Source: Gloeobacterales cyanobacterium ES-bin-313
Lineage (GTDB): Bacteria; Cyanobacteriota; Cyanobacteriia; Gloeobacterales; Gloeobacteraceae
Assembly: GCA_014379585.1 (NCBI GenBank)
Contig: JACMLN010000052.1
Coordinates: 1 to 36,471 of the forward strand
Direction: 5' to 3'
Length of the DNA: 36,471 bases
A program made the position numbers and the translations under genes. Below the pieces are notes generated by a model that did not search any database, was not told the origin of the DNA, and saw nothing but the letters and a program-made list of their open reading frames with translations. Each line of letters starts with the position of its first letter. Within the stretch, counting starts at the first letter, position 1. Positions 4,933 through 32,628 of the stretch are shown here, piece by piece.

Positions 4933-4975
4933 GTTTGTATCCCTGACTGATGAAAAAATGATGGAACGGTGAATT

Positions 4976-5884: not shown

Positions 5885-6767
5885 GTCTCCAAAAGCACGT
5901 ATCGGCATCATCGGTGGTAGCGGTCTCTATCAGATGGCCGACCTTACCGACCGCGAAGAAGTTTTCATCGAAACACCCTTCGGAAAGCCTTCCGATGCTT
6001 TTATTCTCGGTACCCTCGCAGGTGAGCGGGTTGCATTCTTACCCCGCCATGGTCGAGGCCATCGTCTTTTGCCCAGTGAACTGCCTTTTCAGGCAAATAT
6101 CTACGCCCTTAAACTTCTCGGTGTGCAGTACATTCTTTCCGCCTCCGCAGTTGGTTCCTTAAAAGAAGCCTATCCTCCCTGCGATGTCGTACTCCCCGAT
6201 CAGTTCTTGGATCGCACCAAAGATCGCCCCTCGACTTTTTTCGGCGATGGCCTTGTCGCACACATCACTTTTGAGCAGCCCATTTCTCCAGAACTGATCC
6301 AAATCGTTGCCGAAGCTGCCCAATCCTTAAATGTAGGGATTCACGTCGGCGGCACCTACGTCTGTATGGAAGGCCCTGCTTTTTCGACATTAGCCGAATC
6401 TCGCCTCTACCGCAGTTGGGGTATGGACATCATTGGTATGACAAATTTGCAAGAAGCCAAACTCGCCCGTGAAGCCGAGATCGCCTACGTGACCATTGCC
6501 TTCGTCACCGATTACGACTGTTGGCACCCCGACCACGGCAGTGTCAGCATCGAAATGATCCTCGAAAACCTCGGCAAAAATGCGGTTCTTGCCCAATCAC
6601 TGATTAAAGCCACTGTCGAACGTCTACACACTTCTGCACCTGTTTGCGGAAGTCACAGCGCCCTCAAATTCGCCTTGCTCACCGCTCCGGAAATTGTCCC
6701 TGAAACTACCAAGCACAAACTCGCTGCGATTCTTGACGCTTATCCTCAATACCATCCAGTTTCGTAG
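5883..6767 (+). CDS. mtnP: S-methyl-5'-thioadenosine phosphorylase
   Basis: Phosphorolyses 5'-methylthioadenosine to adenine and 5-methylthioribose-1-phosphate, the entry step of methionine salvage, in the cytoplasm. The 294-residue length fits. The N-terminal phosphate loop is [31 protein letters not shown] is the conserved block carrying phosphate- and substrate-binding residues. [20 protein letters not shown] and [19 protein letters not shown] form the purine/ribose pocket typical of [14 protein letters not shown] is the MTAP-type C-terminal block. It is divergent from the pil operon and has no partner gene of methionine salvage next to it here. Confidence 0.95.
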
Positions 6768-9451: not shown

Positions 9452-10045
9452 TTGGCACGTAGAGCTTTTCGGAAGACGGCACCTCCGTCGGGACTCTTTA
9501 GCCCTCGCCAGATGTCTGGGCGCAAAAATATTCAGGGCAAACTGCAGAAGCTCCTGAACGAAGAGTCTATTGAACATATTGGACATGGGGTTTATCGCAA
9601 CCTGAATTTCCCGATGACTCGTCACCATAGTTTCCTGGAACCCGCACTGCGAAGTCCACAGGGAGTTATTTGCCTACTTTCTGCCCTCAGTTTTCATCAG
9701 CTTACGACCCAACAGCCATCAGAAATTTGGTTTGCCATCGCTAATAAAGCCCATCCACCCAAAGTGATTGAAACGCGCCTTAAGATTATTCGGATGTCAG
9801 GAAAGTCTTTACAGGAAGGCGTAGAACTCCATGTTCTTGAAGGTGTGCCAATTCGTATTTTCGGCATTGCTAAAACCATCGCGGACTGTTTCAAATTTCG
9901 AAGCAAGGTAGGTCTAGATGTTGCCCTTGAAGCACTCAAGGAATGCCGTGAGCAGCAACGTTGCCCTATTCAAGAACTTTGGCACTTTGCTAAGGTTTGT
10001 CGTGTGAGTAGTGTGATGCGACCCTATCTTGAGGTACTAACATGA
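9452..10045 (+). CDS. abiEi: AbiEi-type antitoxin of type IV toxin-antitoxin system
   Basis: A 197-residue antitoxin and transcriptional repressor. The N-terminal part (about 1-55; SPRQMSGRKNIQGKLQKLLN, then HIGHGVYRNLN) fits the winged-helix domain. The C-terminal domain contains PQGVICLLSALSFHQLTTQQ, EIWFAIANKAHPPK and GVPIRIFGIAKTIADCFKFR, the conserved AbiEi antitoxin blocks. The start is TTG at 9452, because an in-frame stop lies just upstream and the nearby ATG is in another frame; GAGAG lies 7 bases before it. The final codons overlap abiEii by 4 bases (ATGA). In type IV systems the antitoxin counters the toxin without binding it directly. Predicted roles are phage abortive infection or stabilising a genomic island. 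Confidence 0.88.
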   Translation: MARRAFRKTAPPSGLFSPRQMSGRKNIQGKLQKLLNEESIEHIGHGVYRNLNFPMTRHHSFLEPALRSPQGVICLLSALSFHQLTTQQPSEIWFAIANKAHPPKVIETRLKIIRMSGKSLQEGVELHVLEGVPIRIFGIAKTIADCFKFRSKVGLDVALEALKECREQQRCPIQELWHFAKVCRVSSVMRPYLEVLT

Positions 10046-10959
10046 CGAAAGACAATATTAAAAATATCGGAGCATCTATCCGTGCTCGTTTATTAAAAGA
10101 GGCAAAGCGATTGGAAAATGACTTTAATCTCATTCTTGAGCGATATGCTCTAGAGCGCATCCTATATAGGCTAGGCTGTTCAGAATACCGTTCAAGATTT
10201 ATTCTCAAGGGCGGAATGCTTCTATCTATTTGGTCAGTAGATCCCTATCGTCCGACGCGGGATGCAGATTTACTAGCCTATGGGTCAAATGAGCCTACAG
10301 CTTTAGCAGAGATTTTCCGCGAGATCTGCCAGTTGGATATTGAACAAAATGATGGGCTTACTTTTGATCTCAGTGGCGTAATCTATTCAAAAATTAAAGA
10401 AGATCAAGAGTATGAAGGAATAAGACTAAAATTCAAGGCATTTCTTGATGGTATTGAAATTTCTCTACAGTTCGATATTGGCTTTGGAGACTATGTGACT
10501 CCTGAACCAGAGGAAATGGAATGCTTTGTACTCTTGAACCTGCCAAAGCCTAGCTTGCTAATCTACCCTAAGGAAACTGTAGTGGCAGAAAAATTTGAGG
10601 CGATGGTCAAGCTGGGTCTATTAAATAGTCGAATGAAAGACTACTATGATCTCTGGTTTCTCAGCAGCAATTTCACTTTTGATGGCAGGATTTTGTCAGC
10701 AGCAATCGGGAATACCTTCACTCGCAGGAAAACAACAATTCCAGAAGATATCCCAGAGTGCTTAAGCGACAAGTTTTCTCAAGATCGAGCAAAACTTCAG
10801 CAATGGCAAGCATTTCTCAACCGTACACCACTCAAAACTGAGAAAAAGATGCTTGCTGAAGTCATTAATGTTTTGGAACTTTTTCTAATGCCGCCAGCAC
10901 AGGCAATTACTACAGGTCAGGCTTTCACTAAAGGCTGGATTGCCTACGCATGGAGATAA
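10042..10959 (+). CDS. abiEii: AbiEii-type nucleotidyltransferase toxin
   Basis: A 305-residue toxin of the DNA polymerase beta-like nucleotidyltransferase superfamily (AbiEii/AbiGii). Visible motifs are LKGGMLLSIW (about 56-65), the metal-binding RDADLLAYGS (D74 and D76), KETVVAEKFEAMVKLGLLNS, and RMKDYYDLWFLS. Together these make up the four conserved AbiEii motifs, so the enzyme looks intact. Relatives transfer nucleotides to tRNA 3' ends and block translation. Translation is coupled to the antitoxin through a 4-base overlap. Codon use is AT-rich relative to mtnP or the ado/aar genes, consistent with horizontal transfer. Confidence 0.9.
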   Translation: MTKDNIKNIGASIRARLLKEAKRLENDFNLILERYALERILYRLGCSEYRSRFILKGGMLLSIWSVDPYRPTRDADLLAYGSNEPTALAEIFREICQLDIEQNDGLTFDLSGVIYSKIKEDQEYEGIRLKFKAFLDGIEISLQFDIGFGDYVTPEPEEMECFVLLNLPKPSLLIYPKETVVAEKFEAMVKLGLLNSRMKDYYDLWFLSSNFTFDGRILSAAIGNTFTRRKTTIPEDIPECLSDKFSQDRAKLQQWQAFLNRTPLKTEKKMLAEVINVLELFLMPPAQAITTGQAFTKGWIAYAWR

Positions 10960-13833: not shown

Positions 13834-15207
13834 ATGCCCAAGCTCATTGCCTTTCTAAGAACTATGTTTCTCTGTTCCATCTCATTCGTACTCTTCGTCG
13901 GATGTGCTTCTGAACCACCAGTACCCATTCCAGGGCTTGGTGAGTTGGTGCCTGTTGTTACCCAACCCTCAGACAAACTAGAAGTACATTTATTTGTCGA
14001 TGCGACAGAGTCTATGTCTGGATTCACTACATCGACTGCAGCAGCCACACCCTATCAATTACTCCTTAAAGCCCTAGAAGACGGCGTCAACAGCCTTCCT
14101 GACCCGACGAAGAAAGTGCTTAAATTTAAATTCGGCAAAGACATCGTTCCTTTCCCAGGCAGTCTGCATGTAACGGCGGGGAAAGAGAAAAGCTTTTACA
14201 ACGGGGCAGGCCAGATCACCCTCATTCAAAATGTCTTACAGCAAAAGTATACGCCAAGCAATCCAGAGAGTCTTTCTGTCGTTGTTACAGACTTGTTTCA
14301 ACAAGATCGCGACACCGGGTTGCTGATTGCTGCGCTCTCTAAAAATTACCTCTCCAAAGGTCTTTCAGTTGCCTTGATCGGAGTCAAGAGCGAGTTCAAT
14401 GGAAAAATCTTCGACATGAACAACAGCACTGCTGGAGTGCCCTACATCGGAACGCGCCCAGTCTACGCCATCGTGATCGGCAGCTACGGCAATGTCAGTC
14501 ACTATATAGAAGCGATTAAACTCACCAATACGTCCCTACAAAGCAGTGGCACCAAGTACACCATTTTTACGCCTCAGGTCTTTGCAAAACCGATCAGTTT
14601 TTTAGGTGATTGCGCAGTACGCGATCCAGCAAGCAAGGATGCTTGGAACCTCGACAAAGTCAGCGACAATTTGAAGCCAGATGGCCTCCTGCCGGGAACG
14701 AACATCTGCAAGTTTCTGATCGATCCTGTGGCCCAAGCTAAGTTTACTGCTCTTATCCAAGCACCTGTTCTGCTTTCTGAAGACGTTGCCAGTTACGATC
14801 TCCAACAGTCTGAAATCTTTGTCGAGGTACAACGCGCCATAGAGCCACCCACCCAAACAGAGCAAGAAAATCCTTCGCCCAAACCGCCCTCAAATCTTTC
14901 TGAACCCCTCAAGGACATTGAAATTTCCACAGATTTTAGTAAAGATACTAGCAATGCGCTTTTGCTCAAAATGACCTTGAATTTCAAGTCTCAGCAGCTT
15001 GCGCAAGGCTCCTACCTAGTTCAAGTATTTTTTAAGCCGAAGATTAGCAACTACCCAATGAAATGGGACGATTGGAGTACTGACAATGCCGCTGTCGAGA
15101 AATCGAAGACCCAGGAGTTAACGAGTTTTATTAAAAAGCTATACTCCGCTAGCATCGAGACCCAGAAGCCAGAAGCCAGAATGGCGTTTTACGTTACCAA
15201 ACCTTGA
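13834..15207 (+). CDS. Lipoprotein with vWA-like domain; first gene of the ten-gene locus
   Basis: About 457 residues. The N-terminus (MPKLIAFLRTMFLCSISFVL) runs into FVGC with Cys24, a lipoprotein-type signal, so the body should be outside the cytoplasm and lipid-anchored. KLEVHLFVDATESMSG carries D56-x-T58-x-S60, a MIDAS-like DxSxS variant at the end of a hydrophobic strand. SVVVTDLFQQDRD, about 100 residues later, fits the other metal-site loop of von Willebrand A folds. A Pro-rich stretch (IEPPTQTEQENPSPKPPSN) precedes a C-terminal beta domain. I chose ATG 13834 because it gives a compact lipoprotein signal and lies after the candidate promoter. GTG 13771 and ATG 13864 are alternatives. 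No family name recognised beyond the vWA-like fold. The next gene follows after 23 bases. Confidence 0.72.
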   Translation: MPKLIAFLRTMFLCSISFVLFVGCASEPPVPIPGLGELVPVVTQPSDKLEVHLFVDATESMSGFTTSTAAATPYQLLLKALEDGVNSLPDPTKKVLKFKFGKDIVPFPGSLHVTAGKEKSFYNGAGQITLIQNVLQQKYTPSNPESLSVVVTDLFQQDRDTGLLIAALSKNYLSKGLSVALIGVKSEFNGKIFDMNNSTAGVPYIGTRPVYAIVIGSYGNVSHYIEAIKLTNTSLQSSGTKYTIFTPQVFAKPISFLGDCAVRDPASKDAWNLDKVSDNLKPDGLLPGTNICKFLIDPVAQAKFTALIQAPVLLSEDVASYDLQQSEIFVEVQRAIEPPTQTEQENPSPKPPSNLSEPLKDIEISTDFSKDTSNALLLKMTLNFKSQQLAQGSYLVQVFFKPKISNYPMKWDDWSTDNAAVEKSKTQELTSFIKKLYSASIETQKPEARMAFYVTKP

Positions 15208-15230
15208 TTGAGAAAACTTCGGAGGATGCG

Positions 15231-15692
15231 ATGGACAAATTGAGGTGGATTGGAACTGTCATCGTGGGCGCTGTTACAGCTCTGCTGATGGCATTTTTTT
15301 GGCCTTTCCTTTGCTACCAAATGCGTACCTTTATCGGTATCAACGGCAGTGCGACTTGGTTGAAGCAATTCACGGCCATTGGCCTAGTTGGGGTCGGGAT
15401 CAGTCTGTTTTTATGCTTGGTCTGGTATGTGTTAGGCGAGTTCGTATTTAAAGAGTCTGCAACTGGCTTGTGGTGGGTATTTCTGCTGATCACCTTGATC
15501 GCTGCTATCGTTCCCGCTTTTTGGCCCGGTGCTTTTCCCGTCAGGGTGAGCAATCTTTGGGTCGTGTCGCTGTTTTATTTCATCAATAACACGGTCATCG
15601 GATACTGGTTATCTACCTTCTTTTTCTACCCGTCTACCCAGCTACTTGTTCCCCTAGGAGCAGATGGTTTCTACACAAAATCCAAGAGATAG
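15231..15692 (+). CDS. Four-helix integral membrane protein of the ten-gene locus
   Basis: About 153 residues with four predicted membrane helices: IGTVIVGAVTALLMAFFWPF, FTAIGLVGVGISLFLCLVWY, GLWWVFLLITLIAAIVPAFW and VVSLFYFINNTVIGYWLSTF. No enzyme motif is visible. Start ATG 15231 has a strong GGAGG 6 bases upstream; an earlier TTG that overlaps the previous stop lacks this. It lies 12 bases before the tubulin-like gene. The likely role is as the membrane base of the complex whose other parts are encoded around it. The sequence alone gives no specific function. Confidence 0.75.
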   Translation: MDKLRWIGTVIVGAVTALLMAFFWPFLCYQMRTFIGINGSATWLKQFTAIGLVGVGISLFLCLVWYVLGEFVFKESATGLWWVFLLITLIAAIVPAFWPGAFPVRVSNLWVVSLFYFINNTVIGYWLSTFFFYPSTQLLVPLGADGFYTKSKR

Positions 15693-15704: not shown

Positions 15705-17198
15705 ATGAGCAATTATGTAATTGGCATCGGGGGAACAGGCGCAAAGTGTGTCGAGGCGTTTGTACATATGGTTGCTGCTGGTTTGGTAAACCCTTCTGAT
15801 CGGGCCAAAGATATTTCTGTCCTGTTGATCGATCCAGATGTCGCCAATGGCAGTTTGGAGCGGGCTCGCTCTACCTTGCAGAAATACCGGGAAGTGCGTA
15901 CAGTTCCCTCTGTCGGTAGGATCGCTTTTCTGCGGGATGGTTTAGAGCCAGTCGATCGGCAAAAATCCCAATGGGCCTGGAGTCCTTTTGCTGATGAAGC
16001 AAACCCTTCCTTTCAGAGGCGCTTCACCTACGCGGGAATGGGTGTGCTGGAAGCAGGACTATTAGATGTCCTCTACACGGATGCTGAAAAGAAAGCTTCT
16101 TTGCGCAAAGGTTTTTTGGGGCGGCCTTCCATTGGTGCAGCGGTGATGGCTGAAATTCTCGACCTCGACGATCCAGATCTAGAAGAACCGTGGAAAGGAC
16201 TGAGCAACCGTCTCAAAAATGACAAAGATCCAAAAGTATTTATTGTTGGCTCGATCTTTGGTGGTACAGGAGCCTCCGGGATGCCGACGGTGGCGCGGTT
16301 GCTTGCAGACTTCATGAGCACCAGTGAGATTCGAATCGGCTGTGCTTTGGTATTACCTTACTTTTCGTTTCCAGCCCCCGACGCCCAACAAGCCCAACAG
16401 GTTCAGGCGAGAGCAGAAGAATTTCTGCTGCGGAGTCAGGCTGCTCTGAGTTACTACCAGTCCAAACTTTCAGAAGATCGCGATATTTACGATGCTGTTT
16501 ATCTGTTGGGCACCGACGATTTGCCCCAGGTAGAGAATAATAGCCTTGGATCCAAAGAGCAGCGCAATCCCCCCCATTACCTTGAATTGTACGCGGCGAC
16601 AGCGGCTCTCCATTTCTTTGAGCAGCAACTGAATGATCCTGTGCGCACGCATATCATTCGAAGTCCAGGAGTATGTTTAAATTGGTCGCAATTACCTGGT
16701 GGAAAGGTAACAGAGTATTCTTTGGCCAATCTTGCGCGGTTTAGCTATGCCTACCTGGGCTATTTCTATAAGGAGTTGCTTAATCCTGCTGAACTGCAGC
16801 GCAAAAAAGCACCTTGGTTCGGACTTTTCTTCAAAAAGGAGCGCCTCTCCGAAATCGAGGTCTCCCTCAAAAAAGTACGGGATTACTGCGAGTTATTTCT
16901 CGTTTGGCTTAAAGACACCCAGTCTTTCTCAGGGAACTGCCAGGTAGATTTGTTCAGAACCGATACTTACAGGGTTGAGGCAGACAGCGAAGGGAACAAG
17001 CGCGTCAGCATTTTGAAAGATGAGTATATTCGTCTTTACGCTGTCGAGTCTTCCCAGAGCAGGCTTGTTCCCAATACGTTTCTCGATATCAAAGTTGCTC
17101 TTGATCGACTTACCCCTGAGCAAAGTGTTGGCGCTTCCGATGTCGGCTGTTTTATCCATGCACTGTACAAACTATGCAGTCCCAAAAAGGAGCTTTAG
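15705..17198 (+). CDS. Tubulin-like GTPase (Tubulin_2-type)
   Basis: A 497-residue cytoplasmic protein with the glycine loops of the tubulin/FtsZ superfamily. The N-terminal GIGGTGAKC (residues 7-15) is the first nucleotide loop. FGGTGASG (185-192) follows the hydrophobic strand KVFIVGSI and corresponds to the GGGTGTG signature loop. VLLIDPDVANGSLERA fits the second strand, and the segment NPPHYLELYAATAALHFFEQ is a helix typical of the bacterial tubulin-like (PF13809-type) proteins. It is clearly not FtsZ: it is longer, diverges from residue 200 on, and has no C-terminal FtsA/ZipA peptide. By superfamily it should bind GTP and may polymerise. The next gene, an actin/Hsp70-fold protein, starts 2 bases after its stop. 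Confidence 0.82.
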   Translation: MSNYVIGIGGTGAKCVEAFVHMVAAGLVNPSDRAKDISVLLIDPDVANGSLERARSTLQKYREVRTVPSVGRIAFLRDGLEPVDRQKSQWAWSPFADEANPSFQRRFTYAGMGVLEAGLLDVLYTDAEKKASLRKGFLGRPSIGAAVMAEILDLDDPDLEEPWKGLSNRLKNDKDPKVFIVGSIFGGTGASGMPTVARLLADFMSTSEIRIGCALVLPYFSFPAPDAQQAQQVQARAEEFLLRSQAALSYYQSKLSEDRDIYDAVYLLGTDDLPQVENNSLGSKEQRNPPHYLELYAATAALHFFEQQLNDPVRTHIIRSPGVCLNWSQLPGGKVTEYSLANLARFSYAYLGYFYKELLNPAELQRKKAPWFGLFFKKERLSEIEVSLKKVRDYCELFLVWLKDTQSFSGNCQVDLFRTDTYRVEADSEGNKRVSILKDEYIRLYAVESSQSRLVPNTFLDIKVALDRLTPEQSVGASDVGCFIHALYKLCSPKKEL

Positions 17199-17200
17199 CA

Positions 17201-20200
17201 ATGAATGGCGACCAAGGAAAAGCAGGTAGTAAACCCCTGCTGCCCAAGCTAAAAGCAGATGCTACGGTTGCTACCCCGTCAGAGGCTGCCTCTTGGGTCA
17301 GCGTAGACGGGGTGATTTTGGCAAATTTGGCTGAAAGTTTAGTGGTACCGGATCTGAGTGCAACCCAGCGGTCGATCGACTCGATCCCGGATATTTGGGC
17401 ACGGCCTTTGCTTTTCAAGCAGGCGCTGCACAACAATGAGCATCCTTTGCATCTAACAGTTTTAGGTGAATGGCGGGGTTTACTGGCCATTCTCGCTCTA
17501 CGAGAGTGGCGTAACTTGCGGCTCTACACCAAACTTTTGGATCTCAAAAATCCGCCAGATACTGGCTACGACTTTATTAGAGCTGCCAACTCCTTACTCC
17601 CCCGTCACCAAAGTATTTCGCCCGATACGACCTGGGACAAAGTCCATATCCTTTTTTACGGGGACGAACCCCAAGGCAGCACAAAGGGCAATCCAATTGG
17701 GATCACTTCACCTTTGACTTTGGTCTGTACAGCAGCGGATCTTGCCAGCCAGCCAGGGAATGAGAAGCAAAGCCGATTGGATGAGCGCGTCACTTGGTTT
17801 ATCAGCGGCATGCTTGAGGATCCTTCTCGGCACCTCGATCCTGAAGAAAAACATGCCTTAACGTTTTGGCTCAACCACGTCAAGAAGGGCTTGCAAAGTG
17901 GGGGTAGGGTGAACCGCGATGCCAGTGAACTGATCGGTCGCCTGAATGAATTTGTAGTTGCTTTGCGAGCTGATCGGGTGCCGGCGAGAGAACAACACAG
18001 TCTTAGTTCCCGCAGTCTTGCCCTGCAGACAGGCATCTATCGGATTTTAGATAACCCAGTTAAAGGGATAGAAACTCCCCTCCATCAGTCCATGGTGCGG
18101 GTGAAACCGAGCGCCAGCCTCAATCCACCCAAAGATTTGCTGATTCTTGACGAGAGCTTCAAGACCAAACTGGGCATCTGGCGCAGAAATAATCTCGCCG
18201 AAATACGCGTTTTTGGGACAGAAAATCTTGGCAGCATCAATTTTGCAGAACTAGGCGACAATCCAAACCGACTTGGGTCTCGCGCTGGTGCTCCCCAACT
18301 CAAAGATGGAACACGGGAGGCGGAATGGCGTTTCCCCAAAGCCCTTTTTACAGAACGCTTAATGCTCGTGCGGGCACAGGGAACTACTTTCCCAAATGTC
18401 CTTCCGGTGTCGGGGCAGCGAGATCTGATCTTCCGCAATGTCAGCGTCGTGCCGATCTTGCCGATTGATAGCAAGCTTTTGGACTACTACATCCCCTCTG
18501 ATCTTGCTGAACGGATCCACTTTCGTCAAGAAGGTGAGAACTTCATTGTCGAGTTGATGGTCACTCTTGGTTCGAGTTCAGAAGAATCCGTCGAAGAGTA
18601 TAAACTCACCATTGATAGGGTCTACACCCCTCAAGATGTCGAATTCCGCGAAAACTTGCCTGTCTTGGAAATCTGGCCAAACTTTCGGACACCGACCTGG
18701 AACTGCTATTACACCTACTACGATCTAGTGGGACTTGAACCAACAGATGTCTTCTACGCTCGTCCCTATACAGGCACCGAAGAAGTTGTTAAGCGTTCAA
18801 CCTTAGAACGCGAACTCCTGCTCCATGAAGTCACCCGCACCAGCAAACCGCCTGAGGCAATGATCTGCGAAGCTGTCCGCAAAGATAAGCGACGGTTCTC
18901 CGTTGGTTGTCTGCTGCTTACAGAGTTGCCCTTCAAAAATCAGATGCATCAGAGCATCTGGCACATCGGTATGGACTTTGGTACCTCTGCCAGCCAGGTC
19001 TACTACCGCCGAGACACAGGCAATATTCCAAAGCCACTCCAGTTTCAACAGCGCTTTTTCTCTGTGACATCACCTGGGGAAGAGAACCGCTTCGAGATGG
19101 TCAAGTTCTACTTGCCACCCTTCGAGCCAGTTTCCCCTTTTCCGACCCTCTTTCGGCAGGAACCGAAACTGCCGGGGAACCAGCAGGATCCTTACGATCA
19201 GCCATTCTTGCGCGGCAACATTCGCTACTCCAAAGAAGGTCAACTGCTGCGCGGGCTAGCCAATGAAAAAGTCAGTTCGCGCTTCAAATGGGCTGAGGAG
19301 CAGGAATTAACCGATGGATTTATCGAACAACTAGCCCTTCAATGTTTGGCAGAAGCTGCATCGGAAGGTGTAGCAGAAGTACGTTGGCATGTCTCCTATC
19401 CCACCGCCTTCGACTTCGTCTTGCTCCAAATCCTGCGCAACACCTGGGGCTGTGTCTTAACGATGACCCGCGATCTCGGTTTCCAAACCGACGACAAGCG
19501 TCCCAACTTTATGACCGAGAGTGTGGCAGCGGCTCTCTTTTTCTCCAGCAAAGACAAAGTTAACCTCACCCAAACCGTCTGCATCGATATCGGCGGTGGC
19601 TCTTCAGATATCTCGATCTGGAGCAAGACGGAGCTGATTCAGCAGTCCTCCATCAAGTTTGCTGGGGAGGAAATCTTTATGAATCTCCTCAAAGCCTACC
19701 CTCTGATTTTGGAGCGCTTCGATCCAGAGTGGGGCAAGCAGTTGGCCAAAGTCGTTGGCTCAGAATCATTTTACCCAGAAGCAGATTCTCTCCTCCGCGC
19801 TAACCGCGACAAACTGAAGCAGCGTCTCCCCATTGCCTTAGCGCAAGTCCGCGACCCGATGAGCGATCCTGTCTTCGGACTTATCCATCTCATCGCTTTG
19901 GGTGTCTCAGGGATCGTCTTCTACTCAGGACTCCTGATCAATCAACTCCACCGCCAGGGCGCACTTCCCTACGATGTGCTACCCGAACTGTGTGTCGGCG
20001 GCAATGGCGCACGTACTTTTGAGTGGCTCGGAATCGGAGAATTTTCTGAAGATACACCCCACAATCGCCTGTTTGCCGAACTATTGGTTGCCTCTTCGGA
20101 GCTAGAGCGTGTGCGAAACTACGCTGTTAGAGTCAGCTCCGAACCGAAAGCCGAAGTTGCCTACGGACTTGTCCTACAAGATGAGTTGCATCTAGAAGTC

Positions 20201-20569
20201 AAGAAAAACGATGAAGATTTCATTGTCATCGCTGGCGAAGATTTCAAGGATGAGAAGGGTGAGCCTAAAGGTTGGGATACCCTGATTACCGCTGGCCTGC
20301 TGAAATCAGGTTTATCCATTTCTAAGGAGTTAACTCAACTGCGCAAATTTGTAGAGGTCTACAACAACTATGCAAGTAAAAAGGGGAGCTGCGTTCGTGC
20401 TATCGACCTTGATGCCTACGCAAAAGACATCGAAATGACGGTGCAGCAAAAATTAGACAGCTATAAGCGAATGAACGAAAGCAATATCACTGTTGAACCA
20501 CTCTTCATCACTGCCCTCAAGCGCTTGATTGTTGCTGAGACACAGAAGTGGTCGGGCAAAAAGAGTTGA
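17201..20569 (+). CDS. Large protein with C-terminal actin/Hsp70-fold ATPase domain
   Basis: 1122 residues from ATG 17201, which has AGGAG 9 bases upstream; an earlier ATG at 17174 overlaps the tubulin-like gene. The N-terminal half (1-580) matches no domain I know. Its most conserved-looking block is LTVLGEWRGLLAILALREWR, then VHILFYGDEPQGSTKGNPIG and SPLTLVCTAADLASQPG. The C-terminal half carries all three actin/Hsp70 signatures: phosphate-1 GMDFGTSASQVYYRR (D592), phosphate-2 CIDIGGGSSDISIW (D796), and adenosine loop CVGGNGARTFEWLG (G933-G936). ESVAAALFF lies between them, as in Hsp70-like proteins. No signal peptide or membrane helix is visible, so it is cytoplasmic. It may be a filament-forming or client-remodelling ATPase working with the tubulin-like protein. 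A distant relation to SrfB-type proteins is possible but unproven. Confidence 0.85.
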   Translation: MNGDQGKAGSKPLLPKLKADATVATPSEAASWVSVDGVILANLAESLVVPDLSATQRSIDSIPDIWARPLLFKQALHNNEHPLHLTVLGEWRGLLAILALREWRNLRLYTKLLDLKNPPDTGYDFIRAANSLLPRHQSISPDTTWDKVHILFYGDEPQGSTKGNPIGITSPLTLVCTAADLASQPGNEKQSRLDERVTWFISGMLEDPSRHLDPEEKHALTFWLNHVKKGLQSGGRVNRDASELIGRLNEFVVALRADRVPAREQHSLSSRSLALQTGIYRILDNPVKGIETPLHQSMVRVKPSASLNPPKDLLILDESFKTKLGIWRRNNLAEIRVFGTENLGSINFAELGDNPNRLGSRAGAPQLKDGTREAEWRFPKALFTERLMLVRAQGTTFPNVLPVSGQRDLIFRNVSVVPILPIDSKLLDYYIPSDLAERIHFRQEGENFIVELMVTLGSSSEESVEEYKLTIDRVYTPQDVEFRENLPVLEIWPNFRTPTWNCYYTYYDLVGLEPTDVFYARPYTGTEEVVKRSTLERELLLHEVTRTSKPPEAMICEAVRKDKRRFSVGCLLLTELPFKNQMHQSIWHIGMDFGTSASQVYYRRDTGNIPKPLQFQQRFFSVTSPGEENRFEMVKFYLPPFEPVSPFPTLFRQEPKLPGNQQDPYDQPFLRGNIRYSKEGQLLRGLANEKVSSRFKWAEEQELTDGFIEQLALQCLAEAASEGVAEVRWHVSYPTAFDFVLLQILRNTWGCVLTMTRDLGFQTDDKRPNFMTESVAAALFFSSKDKVNLTQTVCIDIGGGSSDISIWSKTELIQQSSIKFAGEEIFMNLLKAYPLILERFDPEWGKQLAKVVGSESFYPEADSLLRANRDKLKQRLPIALAQVRDPMSDPVFGLIHLIALGVSGIVFYSGLLINQLHRQGALPYDVLPELCVGGNGARTFEWLGIGEFSEDTPHNRLFAELLVASSELERVRNYAVRVSSEPKAEVAYGLVLQDELHLEVKKNDEDFIVIAGEDFKDEKGEPKGWDTLITAGLLKSGLSISKELTQLRKFVEVYNNYASKKGSCVRAIDLDAYAKDIEMTVQQKLDSYKRMNESNITVEPLFITALKRLIVAETQKWSGKKS

Positions 20570-21672: not shown

Positions 21673-23526
21673 ATGAGCACTAAATGTATCACCGAACATA
21701 ATGGCAAACTTTGGTTCAGTTCAGCGGCTGGACTAGAAAGCTTAGATCTGCAAAGTTTTGCCCTTCACAACGAAAGTAGCGCGATTATTCCTACTTGTTT
21801 TCTTTCCCCCATTGGTTCGGATTATCCATGGTGCGGCACCAAGCGAGGTATTTATACTTTTGAGGACAATCTATGGAAAAACTTACGAGTCATTAACGCA
21901 ACACCTAGTGGATGTATTAGCTGTATAACGCAAGATTCGCAAGGCAGTATCTGGTATGCCAACGAAGCTGGTCTCAGTCGATTGGTAGATACGCTTGAAG
22001 CTGTTCTTCAGTACTCGAAAACCTATAAACTTTCGAAAAAGAAAGTGGTAAATTTACTTCAAGATACTGATGCCACCATATGGTGTGCAACAGAAGACGG
22101 CTTATTTGAATATCAGACAGGCAAAAGTGAATTTGATCGCATTAAAGAAGTGAGTATTATTAACTTTACAGAAGGCTATAGCAAAAAACTTTATCTGACT
22201 ACAGTAACTGGATTCAGCAAGTTTGAGGGTCGTACTCGAAATGTGATCGATAATTGGTGGTTAGGCTTGCCAGACGGTGCAACCCCCCAATGTATTATGG
22301 ATGATGCTTCAGGCAGACTTTTATTTGGTACTACTTCAGGTCTTTGTGTGCATGATCAAGAAGAATCCGGGCTTGTACAATTCCCAAAAGACCAAGTTTC
22401 AGTTCAGTGTCTATTTGCAGACTCACAGGGAAGAGTCTGGAGTGGCACAAATCATGGCTTATTCCTAGTAGATGGATACACTGCTATTTCTGTTCATGAG
22501 CTTGCTCATTCAAGAACTAGTAGCTCAACTTCTCGTCCACCAAGTTATGAAATCCCTACGAAACCAACCAGTAGCTTTACTGTTAATTCGAGTAAGTTGG
22601 AAATAGAAGTTAGAAGCTTAAGAGAAGAGAATAGAAAGTTAAGATTAGAACACTTAGACTATCAAAAAGCATTGAAGGAAAATGAATCATTCAGAAGAAA
22701 GGAAAAAGATTGGAGTAAAATTCATAAATCAAATCAGGATGAGATTGCGAGGCTAGAGGCTATTGTAAACAGCACGGATAGTATTCAAATTCAGGGGCTA
22801 ATTGCAGAAATTGGTCAGTTAAAAAGTCAAAATCAGCTATTGGAGCTTCAGACAATCAACAGCACTCAACAGCCCCAAGAAGAAATGAATAGCTGGCGGA
22901 GTGCTTACTATGAATTACTTGAAAAATATAAAGATCTTCAGACGCAACTAAAGCAACAAGCCTTTGAGCCTTCGCTCCCCCAGGAAACTCGTATAATTTT
23001 GGAGCAGCCAATTTCTACTGTAGACGCAAGCTCTGGAGAGAATGTAAGCCTTGAAGCAGATCGAACAGTTGAAGAATATCTCATTCCTCAGCCTCTAGTT
23101 GTTCCGCAAGAAGTGCCAAAGACAGTTGCTACAAGTCCCTTAATGAAAAATCTTCTTTCTACTTATAATGCAGTCTTGAGCAAATATTCAGAAAATGCTG
23201 ATCGAAAAGCTGAAATCGAAAGACGTTTTGTTGATGGAGTCAAACAAGTATCAGTCAGCAATATTCAAGACGTTGACGGGGGCGAACCACCTGAACTCCG
23301 CGAAAGTGATAGAGCCACGTTTTATCTTATTCAAGATGAAAATGATTATCTTGCATTGCCTATACCAGCAATGGCCAGTATGCGTTCTTCCTATATAAGG
23401 GAAATGTACAATATTACTGGTTATGGTGCCTCTATTATTTGCGTCGATGAAGTAGCCGTGTTCCAGAAACAAGGCAACGGTTGGCGCTTAGTCCAAAAAG
23501 GAGCAATCGTCGTTGGTAGTGCATAA
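21673..23526 (+). CDS. Seven-bladed propeller / coiled-coil protein with shared C-terminal domain
   Basis: 617 residues, no signal peptide, so probably cytoplasmic. Seven blades of the two-component-regulator propeller type occupy about 1-275. Blade cores include SIWYANEAGLSRL, TIWCATEDGLFEY, RLLFGTTSGLCVH and RVWSGTNHGLFLVDG. A long coiled coil follows (about 307-430; SKLEIEVRSLREENRKLRLE and later YYELLEKYKDLQTQLKQ). The C-terminal domain (about 488-617; TYNAVLSKYSENADRKA, RATFYLIQDENDYLALPIPA, REMYNITGYG, WRLVQKG) is homologous to that of the preceding gene. In sensor kinases such propellers sense ligands outside the cell, but here no kinase or receiver is attached. A scaffold or assembly role for the NTPases is plausible. 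The gene is clearly AT-rich. Confidence 0.85.
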   Translation: MSTKCITEHNGKLWFSSAAGLESLDLQSFALHNESSAIIPTCFLSPIGSDYPWCGTKRGIYTFEDNLWKNLRVINATPSGCISCITQDSQGSIWYANEAGLSRLVDTLEAVLQYSKTYKLSKKKVVNLLQDTDATIWCATEDGLFEYQTGKSEFDRIKEVSIINFTEGYSKKLYLTTVTGFSKFEGRTRNVIDNWWLGLPDGATPQCIMDDASGRLLFGTTSGLCVHDQEESGLVQFPKDQVSVQCLFADSQGRVWSGTNHGLFLVDGYTAISVHELAHSRTSSSTSRPPSYEIPTKPTSSFTVNSSKLEIEVRSLREENRKLRLEHLDYQKALKENESFRRKEKDWSKIHKSNQDEIARLEAIVNSTDSIQIQGLIAEIGQLKSQNQLLELQTINSTQQPQEEMNSWRSAYYELLEKYKDLQTQLKQQAFEPSLPQETRIILEQPISTVDASSGENVSLEADRTVEEYLIPQPLVVPQEVPKTVATSPLMKNLLSTYNAVLSKYSENADRKAEIERRFVDGVKQVSVSNIQDVDGGEPPELRESDRATFYLIQDENDYLALPIPAMASMRSSYIREMYNITGYGASIICVDEVAVFQKQGNGWRLVQKGAIVVGSA

Positions 23527-23592: not shown

Positions 23593-25872
23593 ATGGGTGT
23601 TACGGGTGTAGTCCAGCAAGCAGGTGTTCTCTGGTATGCCTCCGAAAAAGGGGTGGGGGGCATTGACTTGGAAAATAGAGGTGTGCTCGCCGCTACGCCG
23701 CTCGATGCGCGTTGCTTCTTGGCGGATTCTAGGACGGGTTTGCTGCTGTGTGGCACTGGCAACGGCATTTTTAGTTACCAAGGAAATCGCTGGCAGGCGC
23801 TCAAAATCGATGGCACGGGACCAGGGAGTGCTGTGCGTGCTCTGGTTGTAGATAGCCAAAAGATGATTTGGTGTGCGTCAAACCTGGGACTGGGGAAAAT
23901 GGTTGGTTCCTTCCAGACAGGGTTTGGGTGGCAGTCCACCTACGACACAACCGATGGTTTGCCTAGCCGTCGTGTCGATTGCCTCTGCGTCGATAATCAG
24001 TCTATTCTTTGGTGCGGAACTCCATCGGGATTGGCCAGGTATCAGCCGAATACAGATACTTTCACCGTCAATCCAGCGATTGAAGCTGGAGTGATTGCCC
24101 TCGCAGCGGATCGGCAAAATCAGCTTTTTGTGGCCACTGCAGAGGGCTTAAGCAAGTGGGATGGCAAACGGTGGTCAGAACTTTCTGGTTGGCGGCAACA
24201 TATTGCGGCCTCAGCTGTGCCTCAGTGTTTGTTGGCAGACGATAGTGGCTACCTCTGGTGTGGAACATCCGCTGGCCTTGTCGTGCGCGATGAAGGTATT
24301 TGGCAAGGGATAGATCTAGGGGAGCCAGTCTCTGTGTATTCATTGACCTTGGATGCGCAAGGCAGTCTTTGGTGCGGAACGGAGTCAGGACTATTCAAAG
24401 TAGAAAACTGGAAAGGGATCCCGCTCAAAGAGTTTCTAGAAAGATCCGTTCCGGCTTCAGCCGATGGGATACCTGCACAAACTCCAGAAGCAGAACGACC
24501 AACGACTATCGTTATCCCACCGTCGCCAACTCTGATTGAACCTATTGCATCATTGCAGCCAACAATTCTCAATGCGAATGAGGTGGCCTCGCAGCCTACG
24601 GTACTCAATCTTCCTGAATCTACTTCACTGCCAACAAGTCTGGATACCACCAACCCTATTTTACAACCGACGATTCTTACTACCACTGAGCCTTCTTTAC
24701 TGCCAACGATCCCAACAGCTACTGCTACTGCTCCCGACCGATCATCTGAATTAACAACATCGCCAAATAGCTATATTCGTCTATATGCTTCACCGACCCA
24801 ATCCACAATTCCAATTGGTGGCAAAGAAATTTTTCGCATTCAAGTAGAACGCCAAAATACCGACTCAAATATTTCTTTTGCTGACCTCTTAGGAAGCCAA
24901 GGGATCACAGCTACAGTGATTCAGAAGGATGCCAGCGCCGATTGGGCTAACTTACTGGTCACAGTCACAGAAGAAGCCGTTCCTGGAAATTACACCCTCA
25001 GGGTTCAGGCCGAGGCACCAGGAATAACAATTTATAGTTGCTCTGTGGAGATTGCCGTTGTACCAGCAGTCACTGGGTTGACAACCCCTAATGCATTAGC
25101 GCCTACGAAATTGACACCGAAGCGGGTTAACGAAGAAACAAACCTTGTACCCCTCTTTACTGTTTTGCTTCTCTTTTTATTAGGGGGTGGGCTGATCTGG
25201 GTGTTGGGTCGTTCTGCAGGAGAAAATACTACATCCACCACTCCAACCCCTGAAACACCTTCACCGATTGCTAAATCTCAACCCACGCCCGTACCTCAGC
25301 CTGAACAACCTGAGCCGCAGCCTGTACAAAGGGATACACAAACTAACACCCAAACGGAACCCCCCCCCGAACCTCAGCCCAAGCCTGTTGTGAACAGCAA
25401 TGCTTTCAGCGAGACCGAAGCGGCAAGTCTAATCAATAATTGGCAGCAGATCAAGAAAGAGATCTATTCAGATCCGCAAAACACGGACGGTGAGTCGAAG
25501 TTGGGCAGCATCCTGACTGGGGTGATGCTCAGGGGCAATAGCGGCAATGGTGGGCGCTTGAATTCCTGGCAGCAACTGCGGAGCGAAAGGCAGTTCTGGC
25601 GATACACCCAGGGTTCTATAGTTTTAGTGCCTGGTACATTTCGGCGCGTGGACGACCACACAGCCTTCGCCGTGATCGCGATTACTGAGTCTGGCGAAAA
25701 ATTTGATTCTGCTGGAAACATACTGAAGGATGCTGGCTCCCCCTACTACAACAGCACGTATCAAGTGAAGTATCGCTTTGCTTATGATGACCAGACCAAG
25801 GAATGGCGGCTCGCTGAATGTTGGGGAACCACCAAAACTTTGAGATCCTGTGACCTGGATCGCGAGTCATGA
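23593..25872 (+). CDS. Propeller-Ig-TM protein with C-terminal ARC6-like IMS domain
   Basis: 759 residues, ATG with AAGGAGAGG upstream. The N-terminal seven-bladed propeller (about 1-280) has cores such as MIWCASNLGLGKM, ILWCGTPSGLARY, YLWCGTSAGLVV and SLWCGTESGLFKV. A Pro/Thr-rich spacer repeats (Q/L)PT(I/V/S)L motifs (about 300-385). An Ig-like domain follows (about 393-490; YIRLYASPTQSTIPIGGKE, VTEEAVPGNYTLRVQAEAPG), then one membrane helix (about 518-539; LFTVLLLFLLGGGLIWVLG). A Pro/Gln-rich linker leads to a domain at about 604-755 (AASLINNWQQIKKEI, KLGSILTGVML, STYQVKYRFAYD, EWRLAECW). This fits the IMS domain found at the C-terminus of ARC6/Ftn2. With no leader, the propeller would be cytoplasmic and the IMS domain periplasmic. 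The stop overlaps the next start (ATGA). Confidence 0.85.
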   Translation: MGVTGVVQQAGVLWYASEKGVGGIDLENRGVLAATPLDARCFLADSRTGLLLCGTGNGIFSYQGNRWQALKIDGTGPGSAVRALVVDSQKMIWCASNLGLGKMVGSFQTGFGWQSTYDTTDGLPSRRVDCLCVDNQSILWCGTPSGLARYQPNTDTFTVNPAIEAGVIALAADRQNQLFVATAEGLSKWDGKRWSELSGWRQHIAASAVPQCLLADDSGYLWCGTSAGLVVRDEGIWQGIDLGEPVSVYSLTLDAQGSLWCGTESGLFKVENWKGIPLKEFLERSVPASADGIPAQTPEAERPTTIVIPPSPTLIEPIASLQPTILNANEVASQPTVLNLPESTSLPTSLDTTNPILQPTILTTTEPSLLPTIPTATATAPDRSSELTTSPNSYIRLYASPTQSTIPIGGKEIFRIQVERQNTDSNISFADLLGSQGITATVIQKDASADWANLLVTVTEEAVPGNYTLRVQAEAPGITIYSCSVEIAVVPAVTGLTTPNALAPTKLTPKRVNEETNLVPLFTVLLLFLLGGGLIWVLGRSAGENTTSTTPTPETPSPIAKSQPTPVPQPEQPEPQPVQRDTQTNTQTEPPPEPQPKPVVNSNAFSETEAASLINNWQQIKKEIYSDPQNTDGESKLGSILTGVMLRGNSGNGGRLNSWQQLRSERQFWRYTQGSIVLVPGTFRRVDDHTAFAVIAITESGEKFDSAGNILKDAGSPYYNSTYQVKYRFAYDDQTKEWRLAECWGTTKTLRSCDLDRES
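25360..25368 (+). repeat. Run of nine cytosines in a coding linker
   Basis: An uninterrupted C9 tract encodes prolines (about residues 589-592) between the membrane helix and the IMS domain of the propeller-IMS protein. Such tracts are prone to slippage; a one-base change would remove the IMS domain while leaving the propeller and membrane anchor. Confidence 0.85.
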
Positions 25873-26681
25873 AACAAACCGAAAAGTGGAAATGGTTCTA
25901 CTTGCTTTTGGGTGTCTTTATTGTTGGCAATCTTGGTGCTATGGCTTTTGTCAAATTTGTGATGACACTTCGCGACACGACCGCCCAAACAGAAACATCA
26001 ATCATGCCTTCTGTACCACAAGTTTCCACTGTCCCGAATTCCGTTCCACAGGTCGCTGCTGAACCAACTTCTGCCCCAAAAAGCGCTGTCTCATCGGTTC
26101 CCACGAATACATCATTGGTTTCTGTCTCACCGAATCTTAGTGTAGAAAAGTACGGTCATCTTCCTTACCAAGAAGCCTCCCAAGCTGATGTTGAACTCGT
26201 TGGTAGTTACGGCCTGAGTCAAAAAGACGAGCGCTATGAATTCTTGCACAAAGAAGCCAGTCATGCCTGGTTGCACATGCAATTTGCTGCCCGCGATGAA
26301 GGGGTATGGTTGATCATTATTTCGGGTTTTCGGACGGAGGTTCGCCAGACAAAAGTATTTCTAGATCAGCTCAAGAAAAAGAAGAATGAAGCTGCTGCCG
26401 CTCGCTACGTCGCCCCTCCTGGCTTTAGCGAGCATCATACTGGATACACCCTCGACCTTGGTGATGGTAGTGCGCCAAAGACGGATCTTAAAACAGAATT
26501 TGAGCGAACAAAAGCTTTTCGCTGGTTGACGAAACACGCCCAAAAATACGGATTTGAAATGTCTTTTGGCCCTAACCAAAAGGAGACAGGCGTTGCCTAC
26601 GAACCGTGGCATTGGCGCTATATTGGGACATCCCATGCCCTAGCAATATTTGATCGCGCCAGAAAAAAGAGTCTGCTATGA
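25869..26681 (+). CDS. Membrane-anchored VanY-type D-alanyl-D-alanine carboxypeptidase
   Basis: A 270-residue member of peptidase family M15B. An N-terminal anchor helix (about 5-35; FYLLLGVFIVGNLGAMAFVK) is followed by a Pro/Ser/Val-rich spacer and the catalytic domain (about 110-262). IISGFRTEVRQTKVF is the conserved SxYRS-like region. SEHHTGYTLDLGD supplies zinc ligands H189 and D196. EPWHWRY supplies the catalytic glutamate (E245) and third ligand (H248). All key residues are present, so it should trim the terminal D-Ala from peptidoglycan peptides in the periplasm. It overlaps both neighbours by 4 bases, so it is produced with the two propeller-membrane proteins. Nothing here suggests vancomycin resistance; no VanS/VanR or ligase genes are nearby. 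Confidence 0.93.
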   Translation: MKQTEKWKWFYLLLGVFIVGNLGAMAFVKFVMTLRDTTAQTETSIMPSVPQVSTVPNSVPQVAAEPTSAPKSAVSSVPTNTSLVSVSPNLSVEKYGHLPYQEASQADVELVGSYGLSQKDERYEFLHKEASHAWLHMQFAARDEGVWLIIISGFRTEVRQTKVFLDQLKKKKNEAAAARYVAPPGFSEHHTGYTLDLGDGSAPKTDLKTEFERTKAFRWLTKHAQKYGFEMSFGPNQKETGVAYEPWHWRYIGTSHALAIFDRARKKSLL

Positions 26682-28513
26682 GTACTAATTTGATCGCGGC
26701 GTCCAAAGAATCAGTTTGGTATGTAATCGACGCAAGCCTTTATTGCTTTGATTTCAATCGTCGCAGTGTTGAGGTGGATACAAGCTTCTCAGATCTTGGC
26801 GGTCTCACCATTCGCTGTCTTGTGAGTGTGGATGGCTATCAAAAACCTTGGTGCGGCACAACCAACGGCATCTATTTCTTGAAAGGCGAACAGTGGACTA
26901 AGCTTTCTGCAATCGGGGATTTTAGTCCAGGTACCACCTTCAGTTGTCTCGCTTTTGATGGTAAGTGTGTTCTAGCTGCAGCAAACCGTGGTTTGGCTTT
27001 GCTCAGTATTGGCGAGTATTTTTCTTGGGAGATTCTTTATAATACGACCTACGGATTGCCCAATAATCGAGTGAATTGTTTGGTTATTGACCAAGAACAG
27101 CACCTTTTGTGTGGAACATCACAAGGTCTAGCTACTAAAGATCATGAGCGGTTTAGCAACTTTGTCGCGGATGCACTAACAACTGCGAATATCCTCGATC
27201 TGGCGATCAGTCCAACCGGGCAAGTCTGGTTTGTCGAAGAGACTTCTCTGCGCAAACGCAAGAAGGATGGCACCTGGGAAACAGACACAGGCTGGTCACA
27301 TGGATTGCCTGAAGCTATGTTGCAGTGTCTCCATATTGATGCGGAAGGCATTATTTACGTGGGTACGAACCAAGGAGTAGTTGCCTGTAAAAATGGCATC
27401 TGGAAGTGTATTGATGGAACCGTGAGTGAAAATATTCGTTGTCTCTACAGTGATGGGCAAGGAACCGTCTGGTGTTTAACTACTAAAGCATTACTCTGCC
27501 TCGAAAACCTCAAAGCACTTAATTTGAATGAGATACTAGATTTTGGCTTGCTTCTCAAGGAGCGAGAGGTAAGAAGGCAGTCTGAAATGCCCATTATTTC
27601 TCCAGACACAGCGCTCGATGTTGACGGTAGAGCACCAACCATTTTTTTCAAAGATCGCGACGATACTGTTTTGCTAGCCGAGCAAGATCTACAAATCAAT
27701 GCGCCACAGCCTAGCGAAACTCCTCGCTTAAAATCTCCCCAAGCAGAAAAGCTGACCGCATCTGTGATACTCACCATCGAGCATGCTAAGGCAAAAGCAA
27801 CAAATAGAAGTCCAGCTATTTTCCGTGTTGCTATAGCGCGCACGAACTTTCCTAGCGATGTGCAATGGACGCTGGAAGGCTTGCCAGAGCGTGCTGCCTA
27901 TGGCTGCTCCACGAACTACAATAAGCTCACAATTTCAGTGGATGCTTCTCAAGTTAACATCAGCAAATTGCCCAAGCAAATGATTCCTCTTCAACTGATT
28001 GGGAAAGCGCCTGGTGTCACGATTGCGCCTATAGAACTCGAACTGCGCATCGAGAAAAGCTTGCCCTACTGGGTGTTGCCAACGCTTGGCTTTGTCAGTG
28101 TGTATGCTGTCATTATCATCGCCACAGCTTCAGCACCTGTCAAATTGCTAGAACCAGCTTGGACTGCAGATGACAGCATGCAGCACGCTGCCGAAGGAGG
28201 CATTAATCTACGCGTTATGGTGCCTGAGGAGGCAAAGCTAGGAGAAGGCAAATTAGAAATTTACCGTGGAGATGCTTCTTCACAAGCAGCCTCTTTTGTC
28301 GATGCTATTTTTGACTCCGAGCATGCCGGTTTATTTGTATATAAAAAAAGGTTGCCTGAAGGCAAATACCGTCTTTTAGTAACGCTTCCAGGCTATCGAC
28401 CCTTAGAAAAAGTGATTGTTAAAGAATCCGCCATGGTCACCAAGGCAGATTCTGATACAGGCATTGGTGCGCCTCCCCTCACTCTCGAACGCAAGTTCCT
28501 GAAACTCTTCTGA
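26678..28513 (+). CDS. Propeller-Ig-TM protein with PEGA-like C-terminus
   Basis: 611 residues, no leader, third propeller paralogue of the locus. Seven blades (about 1-275) are readable, with cores such as KPWCGTTNGIYFL, HLLCGTSQGLATK, IIYVGTNQGVVAC and TVWCLTTKALLCL. The link YNTTYGLPNNRVNCLVID matches YDTTDGLPSRRVDCLCVD in the IMS paralogue. An Ig-like domain (about 365-460) precedes one membrane helix (about 464-487; LGFVSVYAVIIIATASA). The C-terminal module (about 505-600; KLEIYRGDAS, LPEGKYRLLVTLPGYRPLEK) resembles a PEGA domain, which is associated with surface or wall attachment. The predicted layout is propeller inside, PEGA-like domain outside. The start overlaps the VanY stop by 4 bases. 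Confidence 0.83.
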   Translation: MSTNLIAASKESVWYVIDASLYCFDFNRRSVEVDTSFSDLGGLTIRCLVSVDGYQKPWCGTTNGIYFLKGEQWTKLSAIGDFSPGTTFSCLAFDGKCVLAAANRGLALLSIGEYFSWEILYNTTYGLPNNRVNCLVIDQEQHLLCGTSQGLATKDHERFSNFVADALTTANILDLAISPTGQVWFVEETSLRKRKKDGTWETDTGWSHGLPEAMLQCLHIDAEGIIYVGTNQGVVACKNGIWKCIDGTVSENIRCLYSDGQGTVWCLTTKALLCLENLKALNLNEILDFGLLLKEREVRRQSEMPIISPDTALDVDGRAPTIFFKDRDDTVLLAEQDLQINAPQPSETPRLKSPQAEKLTASVILTIEHAKAKATNRSPAIFRVAIARTNFPSDVQWTLEGLPERAAYGCSTNYNKLTISVDASQVNISKLPKQMIPLQLIGKAPGVTIAPIELELRIEKSLPYWVLPTLGFVSVYAVIIIATASAPVKLLEPAWTADDSMQHAAEGGINLRVMVPEEAKLGEGKLEIYRGDASSQAASFVDAIFDSEHAGLFVYKKRLPEGKYRLLVTLPGYRPLEKVIVKESAMVTKADSDTGIGAPPLTLERKFLKLF

Positions 28514-28541
28514 CCACAAAGCTATTCATGAGGTATTGATC

Positions 28542-31932: not shown

Positions 31933-32628
31933 GTGAATATTCCTGAAACCGCCATCGACTATACCAGCGCATCCTACCGAGACGCTTTCTCGCGCATCAA
32001 CGCAATTGTGGTTGAGGGCGAACGCGAAGCCTGCGCAAACTATCTCTCGATTGCGACGATGTTGCCTGACCATGCAGAGAATCTTAAAAAGCTCTCGGCG
32101 ATGGAGAGCCGCCACCTCAAGGGATTCCAATCCTGCGCCCGCAACTTGGCAGTTATTCCCGATGACGCGTTTGCCCGTGCGTACTTTGGTGACCTAGACA
32201 ACAACTTTCAAAAAGCTGCCGCTGCCGGAGATATCGTCACCTGCATGGTGATCCAGGCATTGATTATCGAGTGTTTTGCAATCGCGGCCTACAACATCTA
32301 TATTCCGGTTGCGGATCCTTTCGCCAAAAAAATTACCGAAGGCGTGATCAAGGACGAGTACCTGCACCTGAACTTTGGGCAGCAGTGGCTTAAAGAACAC
32401 TTTGAAGAAGTCCGCGAACGGATTATGCAGGCCAACGCTGAGAATTTACCGATTGTTTGGCGGATGCTCCAAGTCGTTGAAGCGGATACTGTGCCCCTGC
32501 GCATGGACAAAGAAGCGATCGTTGAAGACTTCCTGATTGCTTACGGCGAAGCCTTAAGCGATATTGGATTCTCGACCCGCGATGTGATGAGAATGTCTGC
32601 GCGCGGTCTTGCCGCTGCCCCCCACTGA
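31933..32628 (+). CDS. ado: Aldehyde-deformylating oxygenase
   Basis: Ferritin-like di-iron enzyme that converts fatty aldehydes to alkanes or alkenes plus formate, the last step of cyanobacterial hydrocarbon synthesis. 231 residues, the family length. Iron ligands are all in place: E30 ([12 protein letters not shown]), E58 and H61 ([11 protein letters not shown]), E113 ([15 protein letters not shown]), E142 and H145 ([13 protein letters not shown]). The start is GTG 31933 with CAGG upstream. The aar gene follows after 6 bases, the standard cyanobacterial order. Confidence 0.98.

Follow-up and report, generated by a model that had tools for sequence, protein, structure and literature searches.

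Conserved co-inheritance of a tubulin-like and an actin-like gene within a putative membrane-associated bacterial gene cassette

In bacteria, the classic partnership between the actin and tubulin folds is that of FtsA with FtsZ. The two genes described here, from a Gloeobacterales cyanobacterium, resemble this pair in that tubulin-fold and actin-fold partners are encoded side by side. However, their products fail the NCBIfam models for FtsZ and FtsA, the actin-like protein has an extra N-terminal region, and FtsZ is encoded separately in the same genome.

The tubulin-like protein shares the PF13809 superfamily with the FtsZl1/Tubulin_2 proteins (Makarova and Koonin 2010, PMC2875224). According to that report, the FtsZl1 genes have vWA-type and membrane-related neighbours, as at the present locus, and OmpA-like genes lie near some members. 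The T7 region of FtsZl1 is likewise not recognisable, and the same holds for elements from T6 to H7. However, canonical FtsZl1 is about 1,130 amino acids long and has a coiled coil, and most FtsZl1 proteins add a helical C-terminal domain. The main text of the report names no actin-like partner, and the unnamed neighbour families B1-B9 that it defines may include the actin-like protein considered here.

A closer counterpart is found in Synechocystis PCC 6803, where a Tubulin_2 gene, an FtsA-like actin gene and a coiled-coil gene also occur in a row. Sll0445, Sll0446 and Sll0447 carry Tubulin_2, FtsA and DivIC domains, respectively, and co-fractionate both with photosystems and with two pilus proteins, Slr2015 and Slr2018 (PMC9880817). 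Phototaxis is impaired in each of the three insertion mutants, and photosystem effects were reported in the same study (PMC9880817). The genes belong to the transcription unit sll0443-sll0449, which has a CRP site (PMC2633013). Expression of sll0443-sll0445 is increased in a lexA mutant (PMC4759255), and Sll0445 and Sll0446 are deregulated in a comFB mutant that has a pilus defect (PMC12313861). Sll0445-Sll0447 have been described in one organism, as hypothetical proteins tied to pili and photosystems; that literature (PMC9880817, PMC2633013) does not name lipoprotein or transmembrane genes as core components and does not describe a cassette shared between phyla. Finally, the predicted conflict systems centred on GAP1-N2 GTPases (Kaur et al. 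2020, PMC7159879) also combine tubulin-domain and vWA proteins, some with HSP70. These differ in being defined by TRAFAC GTPases and by tubulins with a coiled coil or helical tail, and their tubulin theme belongs to Firmicutes and Actinobacteria (PMC7159879). No TRAFAC GTPase is present among the Pfam matches of the operon described below.

The window analysed is the whole stretch of 36,471 nucleotides from Gloeobacterales cyanobacterium ES-bin-313, whose assembly comprises 4.26 Mb in 198 contigs. Both ORFs of the pair are open and intact (Table 1), and the boundaries and loop motifs given for them in a preliminary description of this DNA are correct. The tubulin-like ORF runs from an ATG at 15705 to a stop that ends at 17198, and an AGGAG precedes the ATG of the actin-like gene at 17201. 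An alternative in-frame ATG at 17174 would cause the actin-like gene to overlap the tubulin-like gene by 25 nucleotides. The cassette is wider than the pair noted earlier, as it includes two upstream genes, giving the order lipoprotein, transmembrane protein, tubulin and actin. The first two genes overlap by 4 nucleotides, 12 nucleotides separate them from the tubulin-like gene, and only 2 nucleotides lie between the tubulin-like and actin-like genes. There are six further genes on the same strand downstream, with gaps of at most 66 nucleotides, and judging from this spacing the cassette and its followers to 30587 are likely one operon.

Table 1. Positions of the cassette genes, their nucleotide-binding motifs and the genes downstream of them.
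Feature	Position	Strand	Evidence or details
vWA-like lipoprotein, cassette gene 1	13834-15207	+	lipobox Cys24; MIDAS-like DATES, residues 56-60
Small multi-TM protein, cassette gene 2	15204-15692	+	three strong hydrophobic segments
Tubulin-fold GTPase, 497 aa, divergent PF13809 Tubulin_2 member	15705-17198	+	Pfam, predicted structure
T1 phosphate loop GIGGTGAK, residues 7-14	15723-15746	+	G9, G10, G12 invariant, 57 sequences
T4 signature loop FGGTGASG, residues 185-192	16257-16280	+	F185, G186, G187, G189 invariant, 57 sequences
Actin/Hsp70-fold ATPase, 1122 aa, N-terminal region of about 580 residues	17201-20569	+	profile and structure matches
Phosphate-1 motif GMDFGTS, residues 590-596	18968-18988	+	D592, G594 invariant
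Phosphate-2 motif CIDIGGGSSD, residues 794-803	19580-19609	+	D796, G798, G799 invariant
Adenosine motif CVGGNGA, residues 932-938	19994-20014	+	G934 invariant
Exported coiled-coil protein, mid-protein TM helix	20631-21656	+	directly 3' of actin-like gene
Beta-propeller protein (Reg_prop)	21673-23526	+	PF07494; C-terminal domain in common with the coiled-coil protein
Beta-propeller protein, C-terminal ARC6-like IMS domain	23593-25872	+	PF07494, PF13355
VanY-like peptidase, third propeller protein, TPR protein	25869-30587	+	PF02557, PF07494, TPR

The first of the downstream genes, encoding the coiled-coil protein, is matched by relatives that occupy the corresponding position in the loci of Gloeobacterales and Synechocystis; this is probably where Sll0447 lies. 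Relatives of the propeller protein with the IMS domain are found in several Gloeobacterales loci. The genes from 25869 onward, which are separated by gaps or overlaps of less than 25 nucleotides, lie outside the conserved core. There are three Reg_prop beta-propeller proteins in this one operon (21673-23526, 23593-25872 and 26678-28513), and their C-terminal parts differ.

The tubulin-like protein matches PF13809 at 40.2 bits, compared with a Pfam cut-off of 27, and 50 of its 57 relatives match the same model at an E-value of 0.001. In addition to the loop residues listed in Table 1, positions D45, S183, Q286, N288 and E294 are invariant in these 57 sequences. A search of PDB sequences with the tubulin profile yielded no convincing match (CetZ at E 0.41), and a structure search was thus needed to recognise the fold. 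The AlphaFold model (pLDDT 88.2, pTM 0.93) aligns with FtsZ, CetZ and tubulins at Z scores of 15-16 over residues 1-341, and the FtsZ match reaches 16.2 over residues 1-347. These scores come from a second structure aligner, which gave Z 16 where Foldseek had aligned the model poorly (TM about 0.25).

The NCBIfam FtsZ model (TIGR00065) does not match the protein, its C-terminus carries no FtsZ-type tail, and the model contains no extended coiled coil along its 497 residues. Residues 322-497 are modelled as mostly helical, unlike the C-terminal domain of FtsZ and tubulin. In addition, the catalytic acidic residues of T7 are not conserved, with at most 28% acidic residues at any column of positions 306-313 among the 57 sequences; T7 was placed here by the order of secondary-structure elements, and so this is strong but not final evidence. 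The unconserved T7 residues and the helical C-terminal part make classical polymerisation of this protein doubtful. The same genome encodes a canonical second Tubulin_2 protein (G000:C17, 340 bits), which has no actin neighbour, and an FtsZ elsewhere (G000:C191, 449.8 bits), and the protein in the cassette is therefore neither. We file it as a separate branch of the Tubulin_2/FtsZl1 superfamily, distinct from canonical FtsZl1.

The ATPase domain of the actin-like protein starts near residue 585, and the extension in front of it, which mixes helix and beta structure, is real. Residue E773 and the motif residues in Table 1 are invariant in 43 relatives from different phyla, and this invariance of key residues indicates that the nucleotide-binding motifs of both proteins are not due to chance. 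From residue 585 to about 1000, the AlphaFold model (pLDDT 84.5) matches MreB at Z 13.3 (residues 585-996), DnaK at 12.5 and FtsA at 12.4, with MamK within the same range. Because these scores all fall within about 1 of each other, the matches to MreB, DnaK and FtsA are best considered tied. The fold and the two phosphate motifs and the adenosine motif place the protein in the Actin/MreB/Hsp70 ATPase superfamily, and a profile search of the PDB finds MreB at E 8e-7. The family nevertheless has no Pfam model of its own: MreB is matched only below the cut-off (23.2 bits here). The NCBIfam FtsA model scores 16.5 bits against a cut-off of 175.85. Neither the HSP70 model (PF00012) nor SrfB (PF07520), an identity considered for this protein and rejected, matches it at E 0.01 or any of eight relatives at 0.1. 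There are also second actin-like copies in three loci (L137, L138 and L139) whose genomes carry the full cassette as well; only the C-terminal two thirds of these copies match, and they are located away from any tubulin-like gene.

The equal standing of DnaK and FtsA among the structural matches raises the possibility that the actin-like protein works as a chaperone or remodeller of the Hsp70 type, with the tubulin-like protein as its GTP-regulated client or adaptor. A true Hsp70 gene does lie 3' of the cassette in several loci. However, the extra domain is N-terminal rather than being a C-terminal substrate-binding domain, and neither GrpE nor DnaJ is encoded in the neighbourhoods examined. 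We consider this explanation highly improbable.

The two genes upstream of the pair hold the same positions in other loci, and the first of them encodes a lipoprotein in most relatives. In the window, the lipoprotein ORF is open from 13771. Residues C24, D56 and D153 are invariant or nearly so in 34 relatives, with Cys24 conserved in more than 90%. Pfam and PDB searches with this protein did not identify a vWA domain, and there is no Pfam match at all. However, comparison of its profile with those of known vWA domains gave Prob 88 and E 2.9e-6, versus 0.2 and 0.1 for controls. The relatives of the second protein have three or four transmembrane segments. It is plausible that the lipoprotein and the transmembrane protein form a membrane platform, in which case the actin-like protein need not serve as an anchor.

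The tubulin-like and actin-like genes are almost always found together. Seven of 59 relatives carry both genes and the other 52 carry neither (Fisher 3e-9). Among 386 cyanobacterial genomes, the tubulin-like gene is present in 25 and the actin-like gene in 27, with all 25 in common (Fisher 3e-37, a value that is descriptive only because the genomes are not independent). The actin-like gene is on the same contig in 73 of 80 tubulin loci from about ten phyla, and is directly downstream in 69. Of the remaining seven loci, four stop at a contig edge near the tubulin-like gene; in the other three (L053, L087 and the fragment L055) the contig continues but carries no actin-like gene. Relatives of the tubulin-like protein occur in Cyanobacteria, Nitrospirae, Acidobacteria, Aminicenantes, Poribacteria, Ignavibacteria and Calditrichia, and also in Bacteroidetes, Alpha- and Gammaproteobacteria and Firmicutes. 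One further contig (L060) is binned as Euryarchaeota, and its cassette groups with gene families of Synechococcus; it is probably mis-binned.

Gene trees of the two proteins, built from 66 pairs, correlate at r 0.925, and 39 of 43 supported splits are common while 4 are contradicted. The order lipoprotein, transmembrane protein, tubulin and actin is kept in most loci, including the Gloeobacterales cassettes, whose proteins are roughly 30-54% identical. In the Synechocystis genus group there is a gene between the tubulin-like and actin-like genes that by eye resembles a Uma2-type nuclease (L159 9185-9745, L162 6857-7462 and L163 9433-10089). The linkage and co-inheritance of the pair are firm. 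Co-occurrence, conserved linkage and congruent trees together indicate that the cassette is passed on as one unit, probably also by transfer. The preliminary description had proposed an independent tubulin-actin partnership, and had named homologues that never co-occur as an outcome that would count against it; the opposite is observed, with co-occurrence that is nearly without exception and trees that match. It had also set the pair apart from FtsZ-FtsA, and this distinction holds, given the lack of an FtsZ tail and the 580-residue N-terminus noted above. The independence of the pair is further indicated by the separate FtsZ, and by the fact that no FtsA exceeds the family cut-off in this genome.

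The fold, the gene order and the co-inheritance are all reminiscent of FtsZ-FtsA, and characterised proteins of the tubulin superfamily make filaments, as stated in the authors' response published with PMC2875224. Perhaps, then, this is a true cytoskeletal pair in which the tubulin-like protein polymerises with GTP and the actin-like protein acts as a co-polymer or, like FtsA, as a membrane anchor. The T7 and C-terminal features of the tubulin-like protein argue against this explanation, and they leave the FtsA-like filament anchoring implied by the preliminary description without support. No membrane-targeting tail was identified in the actin-like protein, whose C-terminal helix is confidently modelled. 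Filament formation is doubtful, and we regard a cytoskeletal pair of this type as unlikely.

The genes that follow the cassette vary by lineage, which gives the impression of a constant core with exchangeable outputs. There are ZorA/MotA-like genes in 14 loci and ZorB/OmpA-like genes in 13, and in Bacteroidota loci true Hsp70 or TerD genes are located downstream. Examples shortly 3' of the cassette are the paired ZorA- and ZorB-like (MotA/MotB) genes of L048 (16726-18965) and L073 (16054-18514), and the TerD-domain genes of the Bacteroidota loci L098 (16878-17444) and L085 (17045-18301), the last of which was called from sequence clustering and by eye. Such neighbours, along with a patchy distribution that includes plasmid copies, the LexA-dependent expression of sll0443-sll0445 (PMC4759255) and the tubulin and Hsp70 parts of predicted conflict systems (PMC7159879), are what might be expected of a response to stress or conflict. 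In such a system, the lipoprotein and transmembrane protein would detect attack or damage to the envelope, with the NTPase pair setting a threshold and the variable downstream genes acting as effectors. However, PADLOC models do not match the tubulin-like protein, the actin-like protein or the lipoprotein, and two weak matches to the transmembrane and coiled-coil proteins look like chance. The neighbourhood also contains no constant nuclease or toxin, and the published phenotype is one of motility. These observations cause us to consider a conflict response quite improbable.

An indication of function comes from Synechocystis. The Synechocystis loci have a row of seven genes, consisting of the four cassette genes from lipoprotein to actin, a coiled-coil gene and two others, which matches the published unit sll0443-sll0449, and the first five of these are in common with the window. 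Based on the genus, the gene order and the domain names, Sll0445-Sll0447 are very probably the same system as the cassette. The published CRP site, when searched for in the genomes, gave one match, away from the cassette. The phototaxis defect could be indirect, owing to the photosystem effects or to insertion mutants that are possibly polar. In addition, PilQ matches are absent or nearly so from some genomes that carry the cassette (G417, G419 and G426), so pili cannot be what the system serves in every genome, and their support is one of its outputs and not the core function.

We consider it fairly likely that the cassette encodes a membrane-linked tubulin-actin NTPase complex that supports envelope or surface machinery, including pili in cyanobacteria. 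The four conserved genes would encode a membrane-associated module with the pair as its cytoplasmic half, wherein the vWA-like lipoprotein is outside the inner membrane, the multi-TM protein is within it, and the tubulin GTPase and actin ATPase complete what is probably one complex. The GTP state of the tubulin-like protein and the ATP state of the actin-like protein would drive assembly or a conformational change, to be passed via the transmembrane protein to the envelope. Downstream genes would then provide the exchangeable outputs, such as coiled-coil and propeller proteins here and ZorAB/MotAB-like channels, true Hsp70 or TerD elsewhere, with support of type IV pilus motility as one cyanobacterial output. 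Physical association of the two NTPases is probable, as the published co-fractionation of their apparent Synechocystis orthologues suggests (PMC9880817), and we infer direct contact, recruitment to the membrane and nucleotide-driven work.

Inheritance as a unit and the need for the apparent Synechocystis counterparts in normal phototaxis give the system the appearance of a second bacterial tubulin-actin machine, alongside FtsZ-FtsA of cell division. A bolder and more speculative version of this idea, which we advance only tentatively, is that such a machine evolved independently and that its two proteins assemble dynamically together on a dedicated membrane platform to drive surface machinery. 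Perhaps the N-terminal region of the actin-like protein triggers GTP hydrolysis by a tubulin that lacks T7.

The Synechocystis complex is already known, as are, since 2010, vWA neighbours of Tubulin_2 proteins. In a search of open-licence literature we found neither the four-gene cassette nor its occurrence across about ten phyla reported, and likewise no account of the actin-like family as such or of the congruence of the trees. What emerges is a tubulin-actin pair that is tightly co-inherited across these phyla, with dedicated membrane partners and an actin-like family for which Pfam has no model. Since three Synechocystis genes have a motility phenotype, the cooperation of two ancient cytoskeletal folds outside of division is directly testable in that organism.

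The window includes several other features. On the minus strand, the genes at 1799-5911 are by eye PilM/N/O/P-like or encode a prepilin peptidase, and a PilQ-like piece is present at the start of the window (12-1226, minus strand). A tblastn search of the flanks of Gloeobacterales cassettes found none of the genes in 1799-5911, and their proximity to the cassette in the window is therefore probably due to chance. A two-gene unit at 9452-10959 resembles, by eye, an AbiEi/AbiEii toxin-antitoxin pair, and an IS605 OrfB/TnpB-like gene lies at 35190-36425 on the minus strand. The region 31933-33675 encodes an aldehyde decarbonylase (PF11266) beside a likely acyl-ACP reductase, which corresponds to cyanobacterial alkane synthesis.
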